From a virus: DNA of 22,926 nucleotides. Location of the stretch: positions 1-22,926 of the IMG/VR virus record IMGVR_UViG_3300010300_000120; one strand, 5' to 3'. Made by a program: the position numbers and the translations under genes. Shown one piece after another: positions 3,174 to 10,830 of the stretch. The notes beneath the pieces were generated by a model. That model saw nothing but the letters and a program-made list of their open reading frames with translations, did no database searches and was not told where the DNA came from. Numbering within the stretch: the stretch's first letter is position 1; each line of letters starts with the position of its first letter.

Positions 3174-4573
3174 TGGCACAAAATCTAGGGCAAGAATTTA
3201 AAATAACCAAAGCAGAAATTACTGCTGAACGGTTAAACAATTCATATGACATGAAGCAAATGATTGGAGAAATTTCTTTCTTTGAAGATCTCCAAAAACC
3301 ATATGTTTCTGCTCAATTAGTCATTATGGATGACGCAGGTGTATTTGATCTTATTAAGATCAAGGGAACTGAGCAGATTGAGATAGTAATTGAAGCAGTT
3401 GAAGATAGTCTTGCTGGAGCAAAATTAGAAATTAAACTCAATATTGTTTCTATTGTCCAAGTTGTGAAAGGAGGCGACAGATCTGAAATTTATCATATGA
3501 ATTGCATATCTCCTCATGCTTATAGAGATCAAGGAATAAAAATTTCTAGGTCATATAAAGGAAAACTAGAAGATATCACAGAAGCAATACTTAAGAATCA
3601 TTTAAATGTTCGGACTGATAGGACATATCTTGGCGGTACTCCCTCGGTGCAACAACCAGTGAAAATTATCACACCATATATTAGTCCTCTAGAATCAGCA
3701 GAATGGTTGGTAGACAGAGCAACGAGCGACATTGGTGCACCATTTTATATTTGGAGCACTTTATACGACCAACAGGAAAATGGCGGCGATGATGTCGTTC
3801 GTATTGGTAATTTAGAATATATGATAAATTCTAAAGAACCGTTCAATGCGGGACTTCCTCTTCTCTACTCATCTGCTCGCGGACAAGAAGTTGCTGGTCA
3901 AGGACTCGCTCAACAAGCAAGGATCGTAAAAGAACTCAGCATTGAAAATATACAAAACCAGTTTAAGGTGATGCAAGAAGGCGCAGTTGGTTCTCTTTTA
4001 AGTAGTTTCGACACCTATACAAGTCAGACATATGAAAGGCACTTTAGTGTTGGAGAACTGCTTCAGAGCATGGAAGACAGAGGAATGCTAAAAGAAGGCA
4101 AGCAAAATGTCTTTGATGATAAACAGAATTTAGAGTATGAAGATGAAATTAAACCTGCGGATCAATGGAATCACAGATATTTAAATACTGTAAGTTCTTT
4201 CGGAACATATCGTTATGATAATAGTTATCATGATGTATTTAATCAAGCGCAGGCACTTAGTAAAATAAAAAGTTCTGCTATGAAGTCTCTTTATAATAAG
4301 AATATGATTACTCTAAAAGTTCCTGGGGTAATATTTTTCGCTCCATTAGCACTGGGAACATCAGGTGCTACTGTTGGTGATATTATTGACATACATTTCA
4401 AAAATACGAATGTAGAGGGAGAGGGAGACGAAGAACTTAATAAAGAACTTTCCGGAACATACTTGATACATATGTGTAGAAATGTATTTACCAGCACTAG
4501 ACATGACGTTATAATTTCCGTCAGCAAAGTTGCTGATTTTGATGGTGCTGTCGCTGCTGGAGACAATCCTTGA
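3173..4573 (+). CDS. 27: Baseplate hub protein, gp27-like
   Basis: A 466-residue protein. The N-terminal half shows the pattern of hub proteins: MIGEISFFEDLQKPYVSAQL, a DDAG turn, an IKGTEQIEI strand, then a YHMNCISPHAYRDQGIKIS strand and KGKLEDITEAILKNHL. This matches the tube-like repeat domains of T4 gp27 (391 residues). gp27 forms the trimeric central torus that joins the tail tube to the gp5 spike. A His- and Tyr-rich region around 340-365 is not in the core pattern. The next gene encodes the gp5-like partner, as in other T4-like phages. It starts by a TAATG overlap with gp53. Similarity to gp27 is by pattern, not alignment, so a divergent hub protein of the same role is possible. Confidence 0.7.
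   Translation: MAQNLGQEFKITKAEITAERLNNSYDMKQMIGEISFFEDLQKPYVSAQLVIMDDAGVFDLIKIKGTEQIEIVIEAVEDSLAGAKLEIKLNIVSIVQVVKGGDRSEIYHMNCISPHAYRDQGIKISRSYKGKLEDITEAILKNHLNVRTDRTYLGGTPSVQQPVKIITPYISPLESAEWLVDRATSDIGAPFYIWSTLYDQQENGGDDVVRIGNLEYMINSKEPFNAGLPLLYSSARGQEVAGQGLAQQARIVKELSIENIQNQFKVMQEGAVGSLLSSFDTYTSQTYERHFSVGELLQSMEDRGMLKEGKQNVFDDKQNLEYEDEIKPADQWNHRYLNTVSSFGTYRYDNSYHDVFNQAQALSKIKSSAMKSLYNKNMITLKVPGVIFFAPLALGTSGATVGDIIDIHFKNTNVEGEGDEELNKELSGTYLIHMCRNVFTSTRHDVIISVSKVADFDGAVAAGDNP
4559..4563 (+). promoter_or_regulatory. Ribosome-binding site deciding a TTG start
   Basis: GGAGA lies six bases before the TTG at 4570. In this frame the nearest upstream stop is at 4540-4542, no ATG or GTG falls between it and 4570, and the next in-frame Met is near residue 96 inside the OB fold. 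The TTG is therefore the only start that keeps the N-terminal domain whole. Confidence 0.6.
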
Positions 4574-5463
4574 AAACGATCAATCACGAATACTACGGTG
4601 ATGATGTCCGGTGGTTTATTGGCACTGCGATCGACAACACTCCTCCTTATGGACTTGAAGGAAGAGTTCAGGTTCGAATTCACGGCATACATTCTGATAA
4701 CGTAAACGATATTCCTCAAAGAGATCTCCCATGGGCGCAGGTTTTAAATCCAGGAAACACGTATGGCGTCTCTGGATTTGGTACATCTGCTCAGATACTT
4801 CCAGGTGCATTAGTGTTTGGATTTTTTCTCGATGGGGTGACTTCTCAATTACCTATGATTATCGGATCAATGCCTAGAATTGAGTTTCCTTCTTCAGTCC
4901 AAGCAAATTTTAGGGACGATCCTGCCAGTAATCCATTTTCATATTATTTTAATCAAACAAACTCTCAAGTTAATGATCCAATATTGACGGTTGCTGCCAA
5001 ACCTGAGGGAGATATTGTAAGATATTTTATAGATAATGGATTCAATGCAAAACAAGCGTGTTCTATTACTGGAGTTCTCAGCGATATTAGTGGATTGGAT
5101 CCAAATAATGTGAGCAATGGCATTGGCATTGCAGGATTACCTCCATTTTCGCCTAGATTGGCGAACTTTTATGCATACGTTGCGAGGTTACAACCTGCAA
5201 AGGCACCAGAAGATATTGAGGGGCAACTTCTTTTCGTTCTTCACGAACTTAGGACTTCTCGTGCATCTGCGTTTTCTAAAATGCTACGAGCAAAAGAAAT
5301 CACTGGGCAATTAAATGGGGAAAAAATAGACGGTATCATAACCAAGGGAAACGGTATGGTAGCTGCTCTTGTTAAATACTATGTTCATCCTTTAACTTCA
5401 ATTTCTCAGTCCGCAGCAGAGGGTAAAGCAGAGTCTCTATTTTCTGGATTGGGAGCAAGATAA
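4570..5463 (+). CDS. 5: Short gp5-like hub protein: OB fold plus degenerate tail-lysozyme-like domain
   Basis: A 297-residue protein. Residues 1-108 match the T4 gp5 N-terminal OB fold (YYGDDVRWFIG, GRVQVRIHGIHS, DLPWAQV, GALVFGFFLDG, QLPMIIGSMPRIEFPS), the part that docks on gp27. Residues 148-275 look like a phage tail lysozyme (Phage_lysozyme2-type) domain: DIVRYFIDNGF, then the ITGVLSDISGLDP stretch at 166-178, a GIAGL turn, and a QLLFVLHEL helix. The usual family motif is GN(x)nESGxxP with a catalytic Glu; here that position is Ile173, so activity is doubtful, although Asp172 is adjacent. The C-terminal beta-helix of T4 gp5 (575 residues) is absent and appears to be encoded at 7942-10299. 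The start is TTG, overlapping the hub stop as TTGA, which may keep its level low. Confidence 0.75.
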   Translation: MKTINHEYYGDDVRWFIGTAIDNTPPYGLEGRVQVRIHGIHSDNVNDIPQRDLPWAQVLNPGNTYGVSGFGTSAQILPGALVFGFFLDGVTSQLPMIIGSMPRIEFPSSVQANFRDDPASNPFSYYFNQTNSQVNDPILTVAAKPEGDIVRYFIDNGFNAKQACSITGVLSDISGLDPNNVSNGIGIAGLPPFSPRLANFYAYVARLQPAKAPEDIEGQLLFVLHELRTSRASAFSKMLRAKEITGQLNGEKIDGIITKGNGMVAALVKYYVHPLTSISQSAAEGKAESLFSGLGAR

Positions 5464-6449
5464 TGGCAAGATTAAATCTTTCGGAACTCAATACCTTTGT
5501 AAACAACTTTTTTGATAAAGTTGGTGTTCGCGATCTTACAGCAATACATGCTGAAAGGATCAAACAATGGTTGATTGAAAACCTTTCAAAAATTGGAAGA
5601 TATGCCACTAGAGATTTTGAGCGATTTGGTACTCTTGAGTCTCACGGGCAGTCTAAGAATGATGGAAGAAAGTTTCATATGGATCGCGCCGATGGTTGGG
5701 TTTCGCTAACAGAAGAAGTTCCTGACCTAGATCATTTTACATATGGAACTGGTATCTTGTGGATACACGGTGAGTTTGAATTACCTGCTTGGTGGGAAGC
5801 ACTAGGAAAAGGTAGAAAAATGGGCGACCATATCTATGGTGATGAGTATGCCCAGACCACATTTGACGGTAAACAAAAACATTTATTTCAAAGAACTACT
5901 GGAGAAACTTACACTTTTTGGTACGAACCTACAACCAAATCAGGGTCACCTGCTGGCGGCACTGATTGGGGAGACCAAGGGTGGGAATATGGTTATCTTT
6001 GGCACGATACTCCAGACGTTACTGCTCAGATAAACCAAGGTACAAAGGTGCCAAAAGACGGAGTTGCAGCTTCAGAGAGTGACGAGATAGCATGGTTTAT
6101 GGAAACTATAACGTATAACACAGGATCAGATATCGTCAAGGAGAAAGCGGATCCTTCGGTGGTCCCTGACACAGAGAACGATGATGATCTGTACCATCTA
6201 GATAACGAAAGAAACCATTATCCATATCGTATTATCCATTCTACTTCTCCCAAGAGCGTTAAGTGGTTGCTTGAAAATATTATTGTTGCTGGAGGAAATG
6301 GTATGTATGATAATAATATTCCTGCTATCGCAACTAGCGTTGGAACTTGGCCGCCAGCAAGCGGGCATAGTTTCGCAAAACAAGGAGTGGATGGAATAGT
6401 CAACTTTATTTCGCCAATAGAAGAAGTTCCGACTTCTGGTAGAGAATAA
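5463..6449 (+). CDS. Uncharacterised 328-residue protein of the hub/spike module
   Basis: Not recognised. It is strongly aromatic, with many Trp in residues 75-210 (for example WIHGEFELPAWWEALG and TDWGDQGWEYGYLWHD), which suggests a compact beta-rich domain that might bind sugar or cell-wall material. Residues 1-60 are predicted-looking helix with heptad character. An acidic linker follows at about 228-247 (contains TENDDDLYHLDNE), then a C-terminal domain of about 80 residues. There is no signal peptide or membrane segment. It sits between the OB/lysozyme-like half and the amidase in a run with one-base TAATG overlaps at both ends, so co-assembly in the central spike or hub is inferred. No T4 counterpart is known to me at this position. 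Confidence 0.7.
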   Translation: MARLNLSELNTFVNNFFDKVGVRDLTAIHAERIKQWLIENLSKIGRYATRDFERFGTLESHGQSKNDGRKFHMDRADGWVSLTEEVPDLDHFTYGTGILWIHGEFELPAWWEALGKGRKMGDHIYGDEYAQTTFDGKQKHLFQRTTGETYTFWYEPTTKSGSPAGGTDWGDQGWEYGYLWHDTPDVTAQINQGTKVPKDGVAASESDEIAWFMETITYNTGSDIVKEKADPSVVPDTENDDDLYHLDNERNHYPYRIIHSTSPKSVKWLLENIIVAGGNGMYDNNIPAIATSVGTWPPASGHSFAKQGVDGIVNFISPIEEVPTSGRE

Positions 6450-7942
6450 TGTCAATAATTGATACTTCAAATTACAATGCCATGATTGCGCAGACTGTCG
6501 CAAATTCAAAGGGCAGAGCATCTGACTTGAAAGTTTTGTCAGGTGGTGTGTTGTCTGACAATCAGGTTTCGCTTATTGAACAGACTGTAAAAAATACAAT
6601 TGATGATGCGATAGGGTTCGAAGTTCCTCAAGAAGTTTACAGTCAGGTCACTGACCTCATGCTCGGCACTTCTCCAGGATTAACTCAACAAAATTTAAAT
6701 TCTATACTCCAGTCAACTGGTGTTATGGGTCAAATAACTAACAAAATCCCTGGCGTCAATATAGGAAATCAACTTTCTTCTATTACAGCACAATATGAGC
6801 AGAAACTTCGTCAAATCACTGGATCTATAGATGGACAGTTGCGTAGTCTTGGACTTCCAGGATTTGCCCAGAATGCAGCAAACAGTGTTATCAATGATGC
6901 TAATAATGTTATTAATAATGTTTTGAAAGGTAATGGAATAACAAACGCTTTTGGTAACCAAGCATCAGTTGGTGGTGCTACTACAAATCTTCTCTCTAAA
7001 GTTATTAGCGGAAATGGATTCGCTAGTCTTGACCAGATTGGATCTAATCTTCCTCCTTCTATAACATCTCTTGCAGATGGTAATGGTATTATTGATCTCG
7101 GCAAATTAACTAAAGCAGATAAAAATTCTCTGACAGGACAAATTTTAAAAAGTGCAACTGGATCTGAAAGTTCAGCGAGAGATCTCGGTTCTCTGGCAGA
7201 TGTGCTTGAGGCGACAATGTTGGGTCTAACTGAAGAAACTGTGTTAGAAGTAGTTGGTCCTGCTCCGTATGAGATTGGATTCCAAGACTTACTTCCTGGA
7301 GGGCAATATATTTCCTCTATTGAAGAACTTGAAGCAGAGATGGGTGGGTTGACTAGAGATATATCTGAGATTATAGTGCATTGGTCAGAAACATTCACTA
7401 ATTCTAATTTAACTGCAAATCAATTGACAACAATTACTGGTTCTGGAGATAATGCATACCACCTTATTGTAAAAAGAGATGGTTCGATTGAAAGAGGAGT
7501 TCCTTTAAACAGCGTTGGGTCTCATTGCCCAGACAATAATCATAATGCATTTTCTATAGGAGTGTGCTTGGTTGGCGGTGTCAACGTTTCAACAGGGACA
7601 ACGGATATCGTACAAACCACATCTCCAAGAAGCATCACACGATCTCAATACAACACTTTGTATCAAATATTTCGAACATTCTTTAATCAATATCCAGGTG
7701 GACAAGCACTAGGGCATATGGACATAGATCCTTCTCAAGAGGATCCAGGGTTTGATGTAAGAGACTATGTGTATAACAATTTCAATAAACAAAGTCTTTA
7801 TAGAGATCCATCAACTGAACCTGCCCTTTCTCCTGATGACATAATTTCTAAACAAGCGGGTCAACAGATTGGGGTAACACCTCAAGATTTAGAATCATTT
7901 GAACTTACAAAAGACCCTGACGTTTTGGAGAAAAACTTTTAA
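6449..7942 (+). CDS. Tail-associated N-acetylmuramoyl-L-alanine amidase (PGRP/T7-lysozyme type) with long N-terminal domain
   Basis: A 497-residue protein. Residues about 305-445 are an Amidase_2/PGRP domain that aligns by eye with T7 lysozyme: IVHWSE (His311), AYHLIVKRDGSIERG (Tyr337), SVGSHC, FSIGVCLVGG, and GHMDIDPSQEDPGFDV (His423, Asp432). Predicted Zn ligands are His311, His423 and Asp432; Asp in place of the T7 Cys is as in AmpD. The Lys two residues before the third ligand in T7 lysozyme (Lys128) is Gln430 here. The enzyme would cut the amide between N-acetylmuramic acid and L-Ala. Residues 1-300 are not recognised: Gln/Asn/Ser-rich, helical, with INDANNVINNVLKG, probably for anchoring in the hub. 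No signal peptide or holin is nearby, and the location in the baseplate run points to a virion-borne enzyme for infection rather than a lysis enzyme. Confidence 0.85.
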   Translation: MSIIDTSNYNAMIAQTVANSKGRASDLKVLSGGVLSDNQVSLIEQTVKNTIDDAIGFEVPQEVYSQVTDLMLGTSPGLTQQNLNSILQSTGVMGQITNKIPGVNIGNQLSSITAQYEQKLRQITGSIDGQLRSLGLPGFAQNAANSVINDANNVINNVLKGNGITNAFGNQASVGGATTNLLSKVISGNGFASLDQIGSNLPPSITSLADGNGIIDLGKLTKADKNSLTGQILKSATGSESSARDLGSLADVLEATMLGLTEETVLEVVGPAPYEIGFQDLLPGGQYISSIEELEAEMGGLTRDISEIIVHWSETFTNSNLTANQLTTITGSGDNAYHLIVKRDGSIERGVPLNSVGSHCPDNNHNAFSIGVCLVGGVNVSTGTTDIVQTTSPRSITRSQYNTLYQIFRTFFNQYPGGQALGHMDIDPSQEDPGFDVRDYVYNNFNKQSLYRDPSTEPALSPDDIISKQAGQQIGVTPQDLESFELTKDPDVLEKNF

Positions 7943-10299
7943 TGACTACAGGAAATAACAAATTAACTGATCGGATTAATGATCCGACAAAGATTAGTCC
8001 AGAACTTACTACTGGTGTTCCAATCGACGGGACTGTAGACCCAACTGGTGAGTACCCGAATCGATACAACTGGTTTCAATCAAATACTAGTGCAGCAAGT
8101 CGCGGTGTTAAAATAAATGATCTTTGGATTGGTGGTAGTACAATGGGTGTCAGTTTTGATGTTCCATTTGGTTCTACTTCTATCTTTCCATTTAATCAAG
8201 CAAATGAGACTCCTTCTGGACACTCATTTGAAATAGACGACACCCCAGGAAATGAGCGCATATTGATAAAGCATCATACTGGTGCTGGTGTAGAACTCAA
8301 GCAGGATGGATCAGTTGCTGTTGTATCTCGAACGCACCAAATACAGGTTGCTGGAGGAGATCACGAACTAGTCGTCGCTGGTCAAGGCAACATCACTTAT
8401 GACGGAGATTTAACTCTGACGGTCAACGGCAACTATAACCTTGTCGTTGGAGGAACATTTAATGTTGATATTGGTGCAAATCATAATCACTCAGTTCATG
8501 GAACATATATTACAGAAACAGGAGACACTCATCAGACTATCGTTCGCGGCAACAAAGACGTGAAAGTCTGGGGAGATCGCCTTGATTATACCTCAAGCGA
8601 ACATAAGATCGTAACCAAAAAAGATGTTCGCATTATTTCTGGAAGAGATATTTTACCGAATGCTAAGAGAGGTATTCGTATATCAGCAGAGGATCATGTA
8701 ACTACTGCCTCTGGTAAGTTTACTACATTGTCTGCACCTGATATGAGGATTATAGGGAACAAAGGTAAAATTGGTGGACCAAATTTTCACTATTTTGGTG
8801 CTCTTTATACAGGAAGTGAAGACGGTCAAGGCAAAGACACTGTGTTCCATGGTAATCTAGTTGGGCGCGCATTAGAAGCATGGACCGCCAAATATTCTAA
8901 ATTTGCAGAACACTCTCATTCTGCCATTGCTGCTGATTGGGCAGAAGAGACAGCGACAGCTGGGGGCACAGGAGCAGTTACCCCTATACCATTTACAGCA
9001 TCACCTATGGATTCAAAACCAAATTACAAGTTTGAATGGGGTTGGACGGCAAAGGATAACCATGTTGTATTTGCTTCTGTTGATAACTGGGGCGATGGTT
9101 GGGTTAATAAAGATCCTGATACTGGATCAGGTCTCATGGCAAATTGGCCAGACGCAGAAAATGCACATGAACCTTTATACGATTACTATGCAAATCCAAC
9201 TAACTGGTGGGAACTTTGGAACAAAGCATCGCCATATGCTGTCCGAAAAGTTTATGTGGATGAAGATGGAGCGATCGAAGCAAAGATTGCAAAAACCGAT
9301 ACTTATAGTCATTATTTTAACTGGACGCCAAAAACTCCAGAAATACGTTCTAAATTGAGAACTATGGATGGTGCTAATGATGCAGCAACATCACCAGAAA
9401 AACAAACTAATGGTCCTCTATGCATAGCATCATTGCTTGACGAGAATCGTCTGTCACCTTTATATTCTACAGAAGCACCAATTCTTCCATATCAAATAAA
9501 AAGGACTGGAACTAGTATTCCTCAAGCAAGATTTGGATATAGTTTATTAGGAAATCCAGTAGAGAGGGCATCAAAATCTTTCTTACCAAAAAATGTTGGT
9601 GCAGTGAATAGAACTATAGTTGCTGACCCTGTGTACAACCCAGATAATCAACGAGCACCTATTAACAGTCAGACTCGTTTATCTAAATCTAGCACGTTGT
9701 CAAAATTCTTTGGTGCTCCTGGATCTAGATCTTCTTTAGACTATGTGCCAACCCTAAAACAAAGACAAGATCTTGCGCGACAATATTATCTTCACGCATG
9801 GTTTATGGAGGGTGTCGCCTCTGCTAAAGAATTTAAGAACTATAGATTACAGGTGACTGAAGGATATTATAATCCCGCCAACGGAATTCGCGAGAAATTT
9901 AACGGAAAGACTGAACCAGCAGAATCATATTACTGGAGAGAACCATATCGTTTAGACGATGGTGGTGGAACTCAGAAATCTATTATTCTTTCTGGAGAAC
10001 CGATCAATCAGTTGAAGTACGAGGGACGAGCAGTAGTCTATACTCTCTACAATACCAGAGGTAAAATTGAGTATCCTGCGACATTTGATTTGGCGCTTTA
10101 CATTCGTGATACGTTTTTCTTTGATCAGTTGAGTCTTGATTATGATATGACTCGCCCAGATAATATAATGACTCAACAATTAATTGTGGTTATGCCAAAA
10201 GTTGACGTAGATTTCAAGGTTACATTTCAACAGAAAGTCAGCACTTACTTCAATCGTAAAACGTTGTCTGGATCTGATTTAATCGAAGTAACCGACTAA
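7942..10299 (+). CDS. Central spike protein: gp5-like beta-helix with large C-terminal region ending in a Hedgehog/M15-like domain
   Basis: A 785-residue protein. Residues about 95-275 carry the repeating short strands of a triple-stranded gp5-type beta-helix (HELVVAGQGNITYDGDLTL, TVNGNYNLVVGGTFNVD, then ITETGDTHQTIVRGNKDVKV). His-x-His pairs occur at 181/183 and 324/326. Unlike T4 gp5, where the helix ends the protein, about 500 residues follow: a Trp-rich region (about 360-445), a Ser/Pro-rich linker (about 540-600), and a C-terminal domain (about 610-765). That last domain contains YRLQVTEGYY (634-643), KYEGRAVVY (692-700) and VVMPKVDVDFKV (749-760), resembling the Hedgehog/M15 peptidase fold (VTEGW..., HYEGRAVDI, AHIHCSV), but with the three metal ligands replaced. 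The protein supplies the needle missing from the gp5-like gene at 4570. The domain call at the C-terminus is from memory of motifs. Confidence 0.75.
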   Translation: MTTGNNKLTDRINDPTKISPELTTGVPIDGTVDPTGEYPNRYNWFQSNTSAASRGVKINDLWIGGSTMGVSFDVPFGSTSIFPFNQANETPSGHSFEIDDTPGNERILIKHHTGAGVELKQDGSVAVVSRTHQIQVAGGDHELVVAGQGNITYDGDLTLTVNGNYNLVVGGTFNVDIGANHNHSVHGTYITETGDTHQTIVRGNKDVKVWGDRLDYTSSEHKIVTKKDVRIISGRDILPNAKRGIRISAEDHVTTASGKFTTLSAPDMRIIGNKGKIGGPNFHYFGALYTGSEDGQGKDTVFHGNLVGRALEAWTAKYSKFAEHSHSAIAADWAEETATAGGTGAVTPIPFTASPMDSKPNYKFEWGWTAKDNHVVFASVDNWGDGWVNKDPDTGSGLMANWPDAENAHEPLYDYYANPTNWWELWNKASPYAVRKVYVDEDGAIEAKIAKTDTYSHYFNWTPKTPEIRSKLRTMDGANDAATSPEKQTNGPLCIASLLDENRLSPLYSTEAPILPYQIKRTGTSIPQARFGYSLLGNPVERASKSFLPKNVGAVNRTIVADPVYNPDNQRAPINSQTRLSKSSTLSKFFGAPGSRSSLDYVPTLKQRQDLARQYYLHAWFMEGVASAKEFKNYRLQVTEGYYNPANGIREKFNGKTEPAESYYWREPYRLDDGGGTQKSIILSGEPINQLKYEGRAVVYTLYNTRGKIEYPATFDLALYIRDTFFFDQLSLDYDMTRPDNIMTQQLIVVMPKVDVDFKVTFQQKVSTYFNRKTLSGSDLIEVTD

Positions 10300-10329: not shown

Positions 10330-10830
10330 ATGGCACTCAAAAGAATAACACCAGGATTAACAGATAAGACTCTTGTCACGAGTAAACAAAAATTTTATTC
10401 TGACATAGATCTTAGTTTTAAAGTAAAATCCGGATCCTTGAATGAGGAGGGCGTTAGGCAGGGAGATGTTTTTAAAAAAACAGACGCTGCAGCAGTAATA
10501 CAATCTGTTGAAACTATATTGTTGACGAACCATTTAGAAAAACCATACCGCCCATTTTTTGGTGCCAATATTAGATCAATGTTATTTGAATTGGATGCAA
10601 ATTATTCTGAATCCACTATCCGAGAACAAATTACAAAAGCAGTAGAAAAAGACGAACCAAGAGCAAAAATAACAGAAGTTAGATTTTATTCTGGTAATGA
10701 ACAGATACCAAGAGGTGCACAAAATATCAGATCATTTGCTGATAATTCTGTTTACATTCAAGTAGAGTTTAGAATACTTAACTCTGAAGAAACATTCACA
10801 GCAGCAGTCAACATGAATAGGTTACGCTAA
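10330..10830 (+). CDS. 25: Baseplate wedge subunit, gp25-like
   Basis: A 166-residue member of the GPW/gp25 family, part of the inner baseplate wedge that binds gp6 and gp53 and helps start the sheath. It shows the core of the family: a helix with AVIQSVETILLTNHLEKPYRP (about 54-75), FFGANIRSMLFE, and the conserved EPR triplet at residues 109-111 followed by ITEVRF. T4 gp25 is 132 residues; the extra length is in the N-terminus and the loop after the EPR motif. It is the first gene after a CTAAATAG motif, with only a weak Shine-Dalgarno sequence, and is followed one base later by gp6, the same order as T4 genes 25-6. Confidence 0.92.
   Translation: MALKRITPGLTDKTLVTSKQKFYSDIDLSFKVKSGSLNEEGVRQGDVFKKTDAAAVIQSVETILLTNHLEKPYRPFFGANIRSMLFELDANYSESTIREQITKAVEKDEPRAKITEVRFYSGNEQIPRGAQNIRSFADNSVYIQVEFRILNSEETFTAAVNMNRLR

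Follow-up and report, generated by a model that had tools for sequence, protein, structure and literature searches.

A conserved M15-like domain without zinc ligands at the C-terminus of a T4-like phage central spike

The baseplate cassette and its spike protein

The window, i.e., the whole stretch of DNA analysed here, is a 22.9-kb metagenome-derived virus record (22,926 nucleotides; IMG/VR identifier IMGVR_UViG_3300010300_000120) that carries the baseplate cassette of a T4-like marine phage in the order gp48, gp53, hub, OB and tail lysozyme, a 328-aa protein, Amidase_2, spike, gp25 and gp6 (Table 1). By gp6, its closest isolates are phage C48C1 (37% identity) and Pelagibacter phage HTVC008M (31% identity). 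The spike matches PHROG 430 'baseplate hub subunit and tail lysozyme' with an E-value of 1.7e-19 and Gp5_trimer_C with an E-value of 0.0011, and the C-terminal β-helical trimerisation region together with the baseplate neighbourhood (gp48-gp53-hub-OB-spike-gp25-gp6) identifies it as a gp5-type central spike protein, in which a middle region lies between the β-helix and the C-terminal domain. The 328-aa protein has no Pfam or PHROG match below an E-value of 0.1; at another locus (L005:3190-6411), it is matched by each of two adjacent ORFs (596 aa and 477 aa), which suggests a tandem duplication.

Table 1. Features of the baseplate cassette and of the spike C-terminus, with positions in the window
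Feature	Position	Strand	Basis or remark
gp5 OB domain and tail-lysozyme (PF18013) gene	4570..5463	+	Pfam; Ile173 (5086-5088) in place of the presumed catalytic Glu
328-aa protein between the lysozyme and amidase genes	5463..6449	+	Function unassigned
Amidase_2 baseplate protein	6449..7942	+	Pfam E-value 7.3e-13; zinc triad intact: His311 (7379), His423 (7715), Asp432 (7742)
gp5-type central spike protein, 785 aa (β-helix, middle region, C-terminal M15-like domain)	7942..10299	+	PHROG 430, Gp5_trimer_C
β-helical needle, ~residues 82-290	8185..8811	+	PHROG 430/27932, Gp5_trimer_C, Gp5_C repeats
M15-like (LAS-fold) domain, predicted catalytically dead, residues 552-785, ~230 aa	9595..10296	+	AF2, BFVD, hhalign
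RLQVTEGYY strand, residues 635-643	9844..9870	+	Counterpart of MVTSAFR in pf16 and LRVTEGW in Sonic hedgehog
KYEGRAVVY, residues 692-700, former HX6D motif	10015..10041	+	His replaced by Lys692, Asp by Val699; aligned to QHLKGEAVD of pf16
Helix plus strand, FDLALYIRDTFFFDQLSLDYD	10084..10146	+	Counterpart in pf16: FEVAKWIKDNLPYDQFLLEYK
Region expected to hold the third zinc ligand, residues 745-760	10174..10221	+	No His by any placement
gp25 baseplate wedge gene	10330..10830	+	Synteny: adjoins the M15-like domain on its downstream side in every locus examined

An earlier note, made from the sequence, had proposed that positions 9841-10260 of the window (spike residues 634-773) hold a degenerate domain of the Hedgehog/M15-peptidase (LAS) fold, whose blocks YRLQVTEG (residues 634-641), KYEGRAVVY (residues 692-700) and VVMPKVDVDFKV (residues 749-760) line up with those of the Hedgehog signalling domain, and all three blocks lie where they had been placed. 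Aligned pairwise with one Sonic hedgehog sequence, the blocks match weakly (Smith-Waterman score 40; mean of shuffles 29.9; p ~0.04), but as a family they exceed chance, as seen from hhalign comparisons of a 52-sequence alignment with shuffling and reversal controls.

Relatives of the C-terminal domain and its link to M15A peptidases

Relatives of the domain were collected by profile searches of viral contigs, which gave 63 loci, after which the best 80 of 227 matches were kept. In the databases searched, the family is found only in metagenome-derived contigs and in three MAG contigs, and a tblastn search with the domain found no relative among isolated phages. The labels of the MAG contigs (L207, L208 and L209) are Euryarchaeota, Bacteroidetes and Opitutia; all three contain this same phage baseplate cassette, and the archaeal label, at least, is probably a binning error. 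The family falls into two clades, which the tree separates with full support. In clade 1, which includes the window, the domain is fused to the spike in all members long enough to judge, and the loop that joins the first two motifs is longer by an insertion of ~30-40 residues. Members of clade 2 mostly encode the domain as a separate protein of 206-319 aa, directly between the spike and gp25, with fused domains in L109, a nested re-fusion, and in L139; the tree requires at least two switches between the fused and split forms. Some split forms (L056, L058, L064, L069 and L070) carry an additional C-terminal module of ~90 aa (YFYPLY...HIHTF...FYMP...HAK), possibly a metal-binding tip.

The AlphaFold2 model of the C-terminal domain (residues 552-785), built with 52 relatives, has a pLDDT of 90 and a pTM of 0.87. 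Its elements follow the order long helix, strand, short helix, strand, helix, strand and strand, which is the order of M15 peptidases and Hedgehog in the LAS family (described in PMC4102407 and PMC6027127). Foldseek searches against viral models (BFVD) found gp5-type spike proteins and M15A peptidases as best matches, viz., gp5 of Pseudomonas phage pf16 (E-value 1.8e-8), a 701-aa protein of the same length as Cr30 gp5 (E-value 1.3e-7) and, among others, proteins annotated 'Peptidase M15A' (E-values 2.3e-6 and 7.1e-5), with moderate TM-scores (0.35-0.53, by query). The Foldseek check proposed in the earlier note thus bore out the fold among viral models but not against the PDB, where the long form of the domain gave only noise (E-values above 0.1), for which the 30-40 residue insertion may be responsible. 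With the short form, the PDB matches of highest probability are Desert, Sonic and Indian hedgehog, Ply500 and LysB4, every one with an E-value above 0.1.

HMMER scans of the domain against Pfam, PHROGs and PDB sequences found nothing: neither the window nor any of 33 family members reached the Pfam gathering cut-off for M15 (PF08291/PF02557/PF13539), and HH_signal (PF01085), whose zinc ligands the domain lacks, gave no HMMER match. The earlier note had named such an outcome as a refutation of its proposal, but the missing match reflects a limit of sensitivity, since Pfam M15_3 scores even the intact domain of pf16 below its cut-off. Profile-profile comparison, on the other hand, recovers the relationship. 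Using hhalign, the 52-sequence alignment of the window family matches a profile of 32 catalytic phage-spike M15 domains with an E-value of 6.3e-6, and the two clades do so separately (5.8e-5 for clade 1 alone and 1.3e-4 for clade 2 alone), while among 100 column shuffles the lowest E-value is 0.0068, the reversed alignment gives 0.19, and nine baseplate families of the same loci, unrelated to the domain, reach 0.049 at best. Against one Sonic hedgehog sequence, the E-value is 5.3e-4 for the window family and 1.2e-5 for the catalytic M15 domains. The nearest relatives of the domain are the M15A domains of phage spikes, rather than Hedgehog itself.

The phage homologues with intact His/Asp/His that the earlier note had suggested looking for do exist: the zinc ligands are intact in 32/32 spike M15 domains, and spikes with active M15 domains can already be seen in deposited genomes. 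For example, in gp5 of pf16, OB and β-helix are accompanied by an M15 domain at the C-terminus that has HX6D and WIH, Caulobacter phage Cr30 has OB, tail lysozyme, β-helix and intact M15 all within one gp5, and in Methylophilales phage Melnitz an OB protein is followed by a spike with an intact C-terminal M15 domain and then by gp25 and gp6. The domain of the window occupies the same slot as the intact M15 of Cr30 and Melnitz (the spike C-terminus, before gp25/gp6), and its position thus supports homology. The claimed LAS relationship is therefore upheld by predicted structure, by profile-profile comparison with controls and by gene position. The Melnitz OB-domain protein (L206:4364-5404) has a VanY-like domain (E-value 1.1e-4) in place of the tail lysozyme, so that its hub contains two M15-type domains.

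Loss of the zinc site and decay of the neighbouring hydrolases

Among 95 distinct relatives, the column of the first zinc-binding His holds K/M/L/S/C/A and that of the Asp V/A/I, with His in 0/95 and Asp in 0/95 at these positions. Of the ligand positions named in the earlier note, Lys692 and Val699 stand, and Asp757 is rejected as the third, the residue being Pro in 65/95 relatives. The placement of the third ligand differs by method (hhalign points to Asp755, the predicted secondary structure to the strand 744-750), and among the residues listed for the 95 relatives no candidate column has His; because no placement gives His, the conclusion that the His/Asp/His site of M15A/LAS enzymes is lost does not depend on this choice. 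From residue 601 onward, the domain of the window has only one His (His618), upstream of the motifs, and the Arg of the TSxFR motif is also lost in the window family. On the aligned sequences, the loss of the metal site, which had been claimed for the window, is family-wide and old, and from this ligand loss the domain is predicted not to cleave peptidoglycan peptides. It is nevertheless under strong purifying selection (dN/dS of 0.016-0.087 in eight close pairs), so that it has been kept, as the note had supposed, and is not a recent pseudogene; the structural or binding role that was also supposed is a likely interpretation of this conservation.

The neighbouring hydrolases show a reciprocal pattern of decay. 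All loci that extend far enough upstream (85/85) have an amidase-like gene ahead of the domain. Clade 1 retains the H/H/D triad of the amidase in 41/41 loci but has I/V/A, in 26/26, in the column of the lysozyme Glu, which we take to be catalytic from what is known of the phage tail lysozyme family. Clade 2 shows the reverse: 47/47 loci have the lysozyme Glu, and almost all have a broken amidase zinc triad, the exceptions being L062, which keeps both the lysozyme Glu and the amidase triad, and L138, also with an intact triad. This pattern amounts to few independent events, since it largely follows one split on the tree. The decayed hydrolases are also under selection, with a median dN/dS of 0.034 for the lysozyme and 0.117 for the amidase, as estimated from close pairs. 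The catalytic M15 loci were covered with 3 kb flanks only, and amidase absence at those loci was left out of the argument. A tentative generalization would be a 'one live hydrolase' rule for marine T4-like spikes, whereby lysozyme, amidase and M15 are all selected, usually only one of them keeps its active site, which one varies by lineage, and the dead ones serve as structural or recognition modules.

These loci also bear on an alternative role, drawn by analogy from bacteria, where the dead LAS-type (LytM) domains of EnvC and NlpD control amidases through a deactivated cleft (PMC8416486): the dead M15 domain could likewise activate the neighbouring baseplate amidase, in keeping with an amidase-like gene just upstream at all 85 loci and a triad that is intact in the window clade. 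However, clade 2 keeps the domain although the amidase triad is nearly always lost, and because the domain persists in most of this clade where the amidase is dead, EnvC-type activation is disfavoured as a general role and appears unlikely. It is more improbable still that the domain is a new enzyme, in which His618, Arg635, Glu640, Tyr643, Tyr734 and Asp735 would form another active or metal site. These six residues, none of which is part of the old zinc site, are invariant or nearly so (93-95/95) across two deeply separated clades, and the invariant His618, Glu640 and Asp735 may leave room for different chemistry, but all are on structural elements and could belong to the core or to an interface. 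Fold convergence or chance, i.e., an unrelated α/β domain with coincidental Hedgehog-like motif words, would agree with the lack of a HMMER match to any family and the insignificant PDB Foldseek E-values, but is very hard to reconcile with the profile-profile matches of the whole family and of each clade with clean controls, the BFVD matches to M15 spike proteins and the identical gene position.

Proposed role and comparison with known systems

We favour, with a probability of about 0.8, the reading that the C-terminal domain of the spike is a conserved pseudoenzyme derived from M15A, likely a non-cutting distal module beside one live hydrolase of the cassette. The ancestor would have been an M15A (LAS-fold) zinc peptidase such as occupies the same place in other T4-like phages, and the lineage of the window has lost every zinc ligand and the TSxFR Arg. 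A location at the distal end of the spike is probable, because the domain follows the β-helix and intact M15 occurs on spike and 'PAAR motif' proteins. There, the pseudoenzyme probably acts as a cap for the needle or, during puncture, docks to a component of the envelope, the candidate partners being a peptidoglycan peptide or a periplasmic protein, and wall cutting would be left to the cassette hydrolase with a surviving active site, which in the window would be the amidase.

In those parts of the literature that were available to our search, no description was found of a dead form of the spike M15 domain or of the reciprocal loss of hydrolases. The 95 distinct sequences define a conserved domain family, previously unnamed and unmatched in Pfam and PHROG, at a key site of a contractile injection machine. 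How much wall hydrolysis a phage spike needs could be tested in the natural experiment that the reciprocal decay of lysozyme and amidase offers.

The closest known systems are the spikes of pf16, Cr30 and Melnitz, which are likewise T4-like and have M15A C-terminal to the β-helix, with colinear motifs and a profile E-value of 6e-6; in Cr30 and Melnitz, the M15 domain also lies upstream of gp25/gp6, as in the window. They differ in keeping the HX6D and WxH ligands and the TSxFR Arg, none of which is present in the window family. T4 gp5.4 and PAAR proteins are spike-tip proteins, and the split form of the window family resembles them in being a small gene that directly follows that of the spike. 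The PAAR sequence signature is not found in the spike of the window, though 'PAAR motif' proteins of other phages carry an intact M15 domain. The degenerate LytM domains of EnvC and NlpD are also LAS-type wall-peptidase domains that have lost their catalytic residues yet are conserved (PMC8416486), but they are of M23 rather than M15 and act as regulators of the bacterial divisome, outside phage virions.

The N-terminal signalling domain of Hedgehog (PF01085) shares with the domain of the window the LAS topology and the VTEG(W/Y) and YEGRAV motifs, with an hhalign E-value of 5e-4. Whether Hedgehog uses its zinc-peptidase fold as an enzyme or as a ligand is under debate. Unlike the window domain, this animal protein, a more distant relative than the phage M15 domains, retains its zinc ligands (His141/Asp148/His183; PMC6027127). 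The spike domain would provide, in the same superfamily as Hedgehog, an example of a wall-cutting enzyme that has become a non-enzymatic component.
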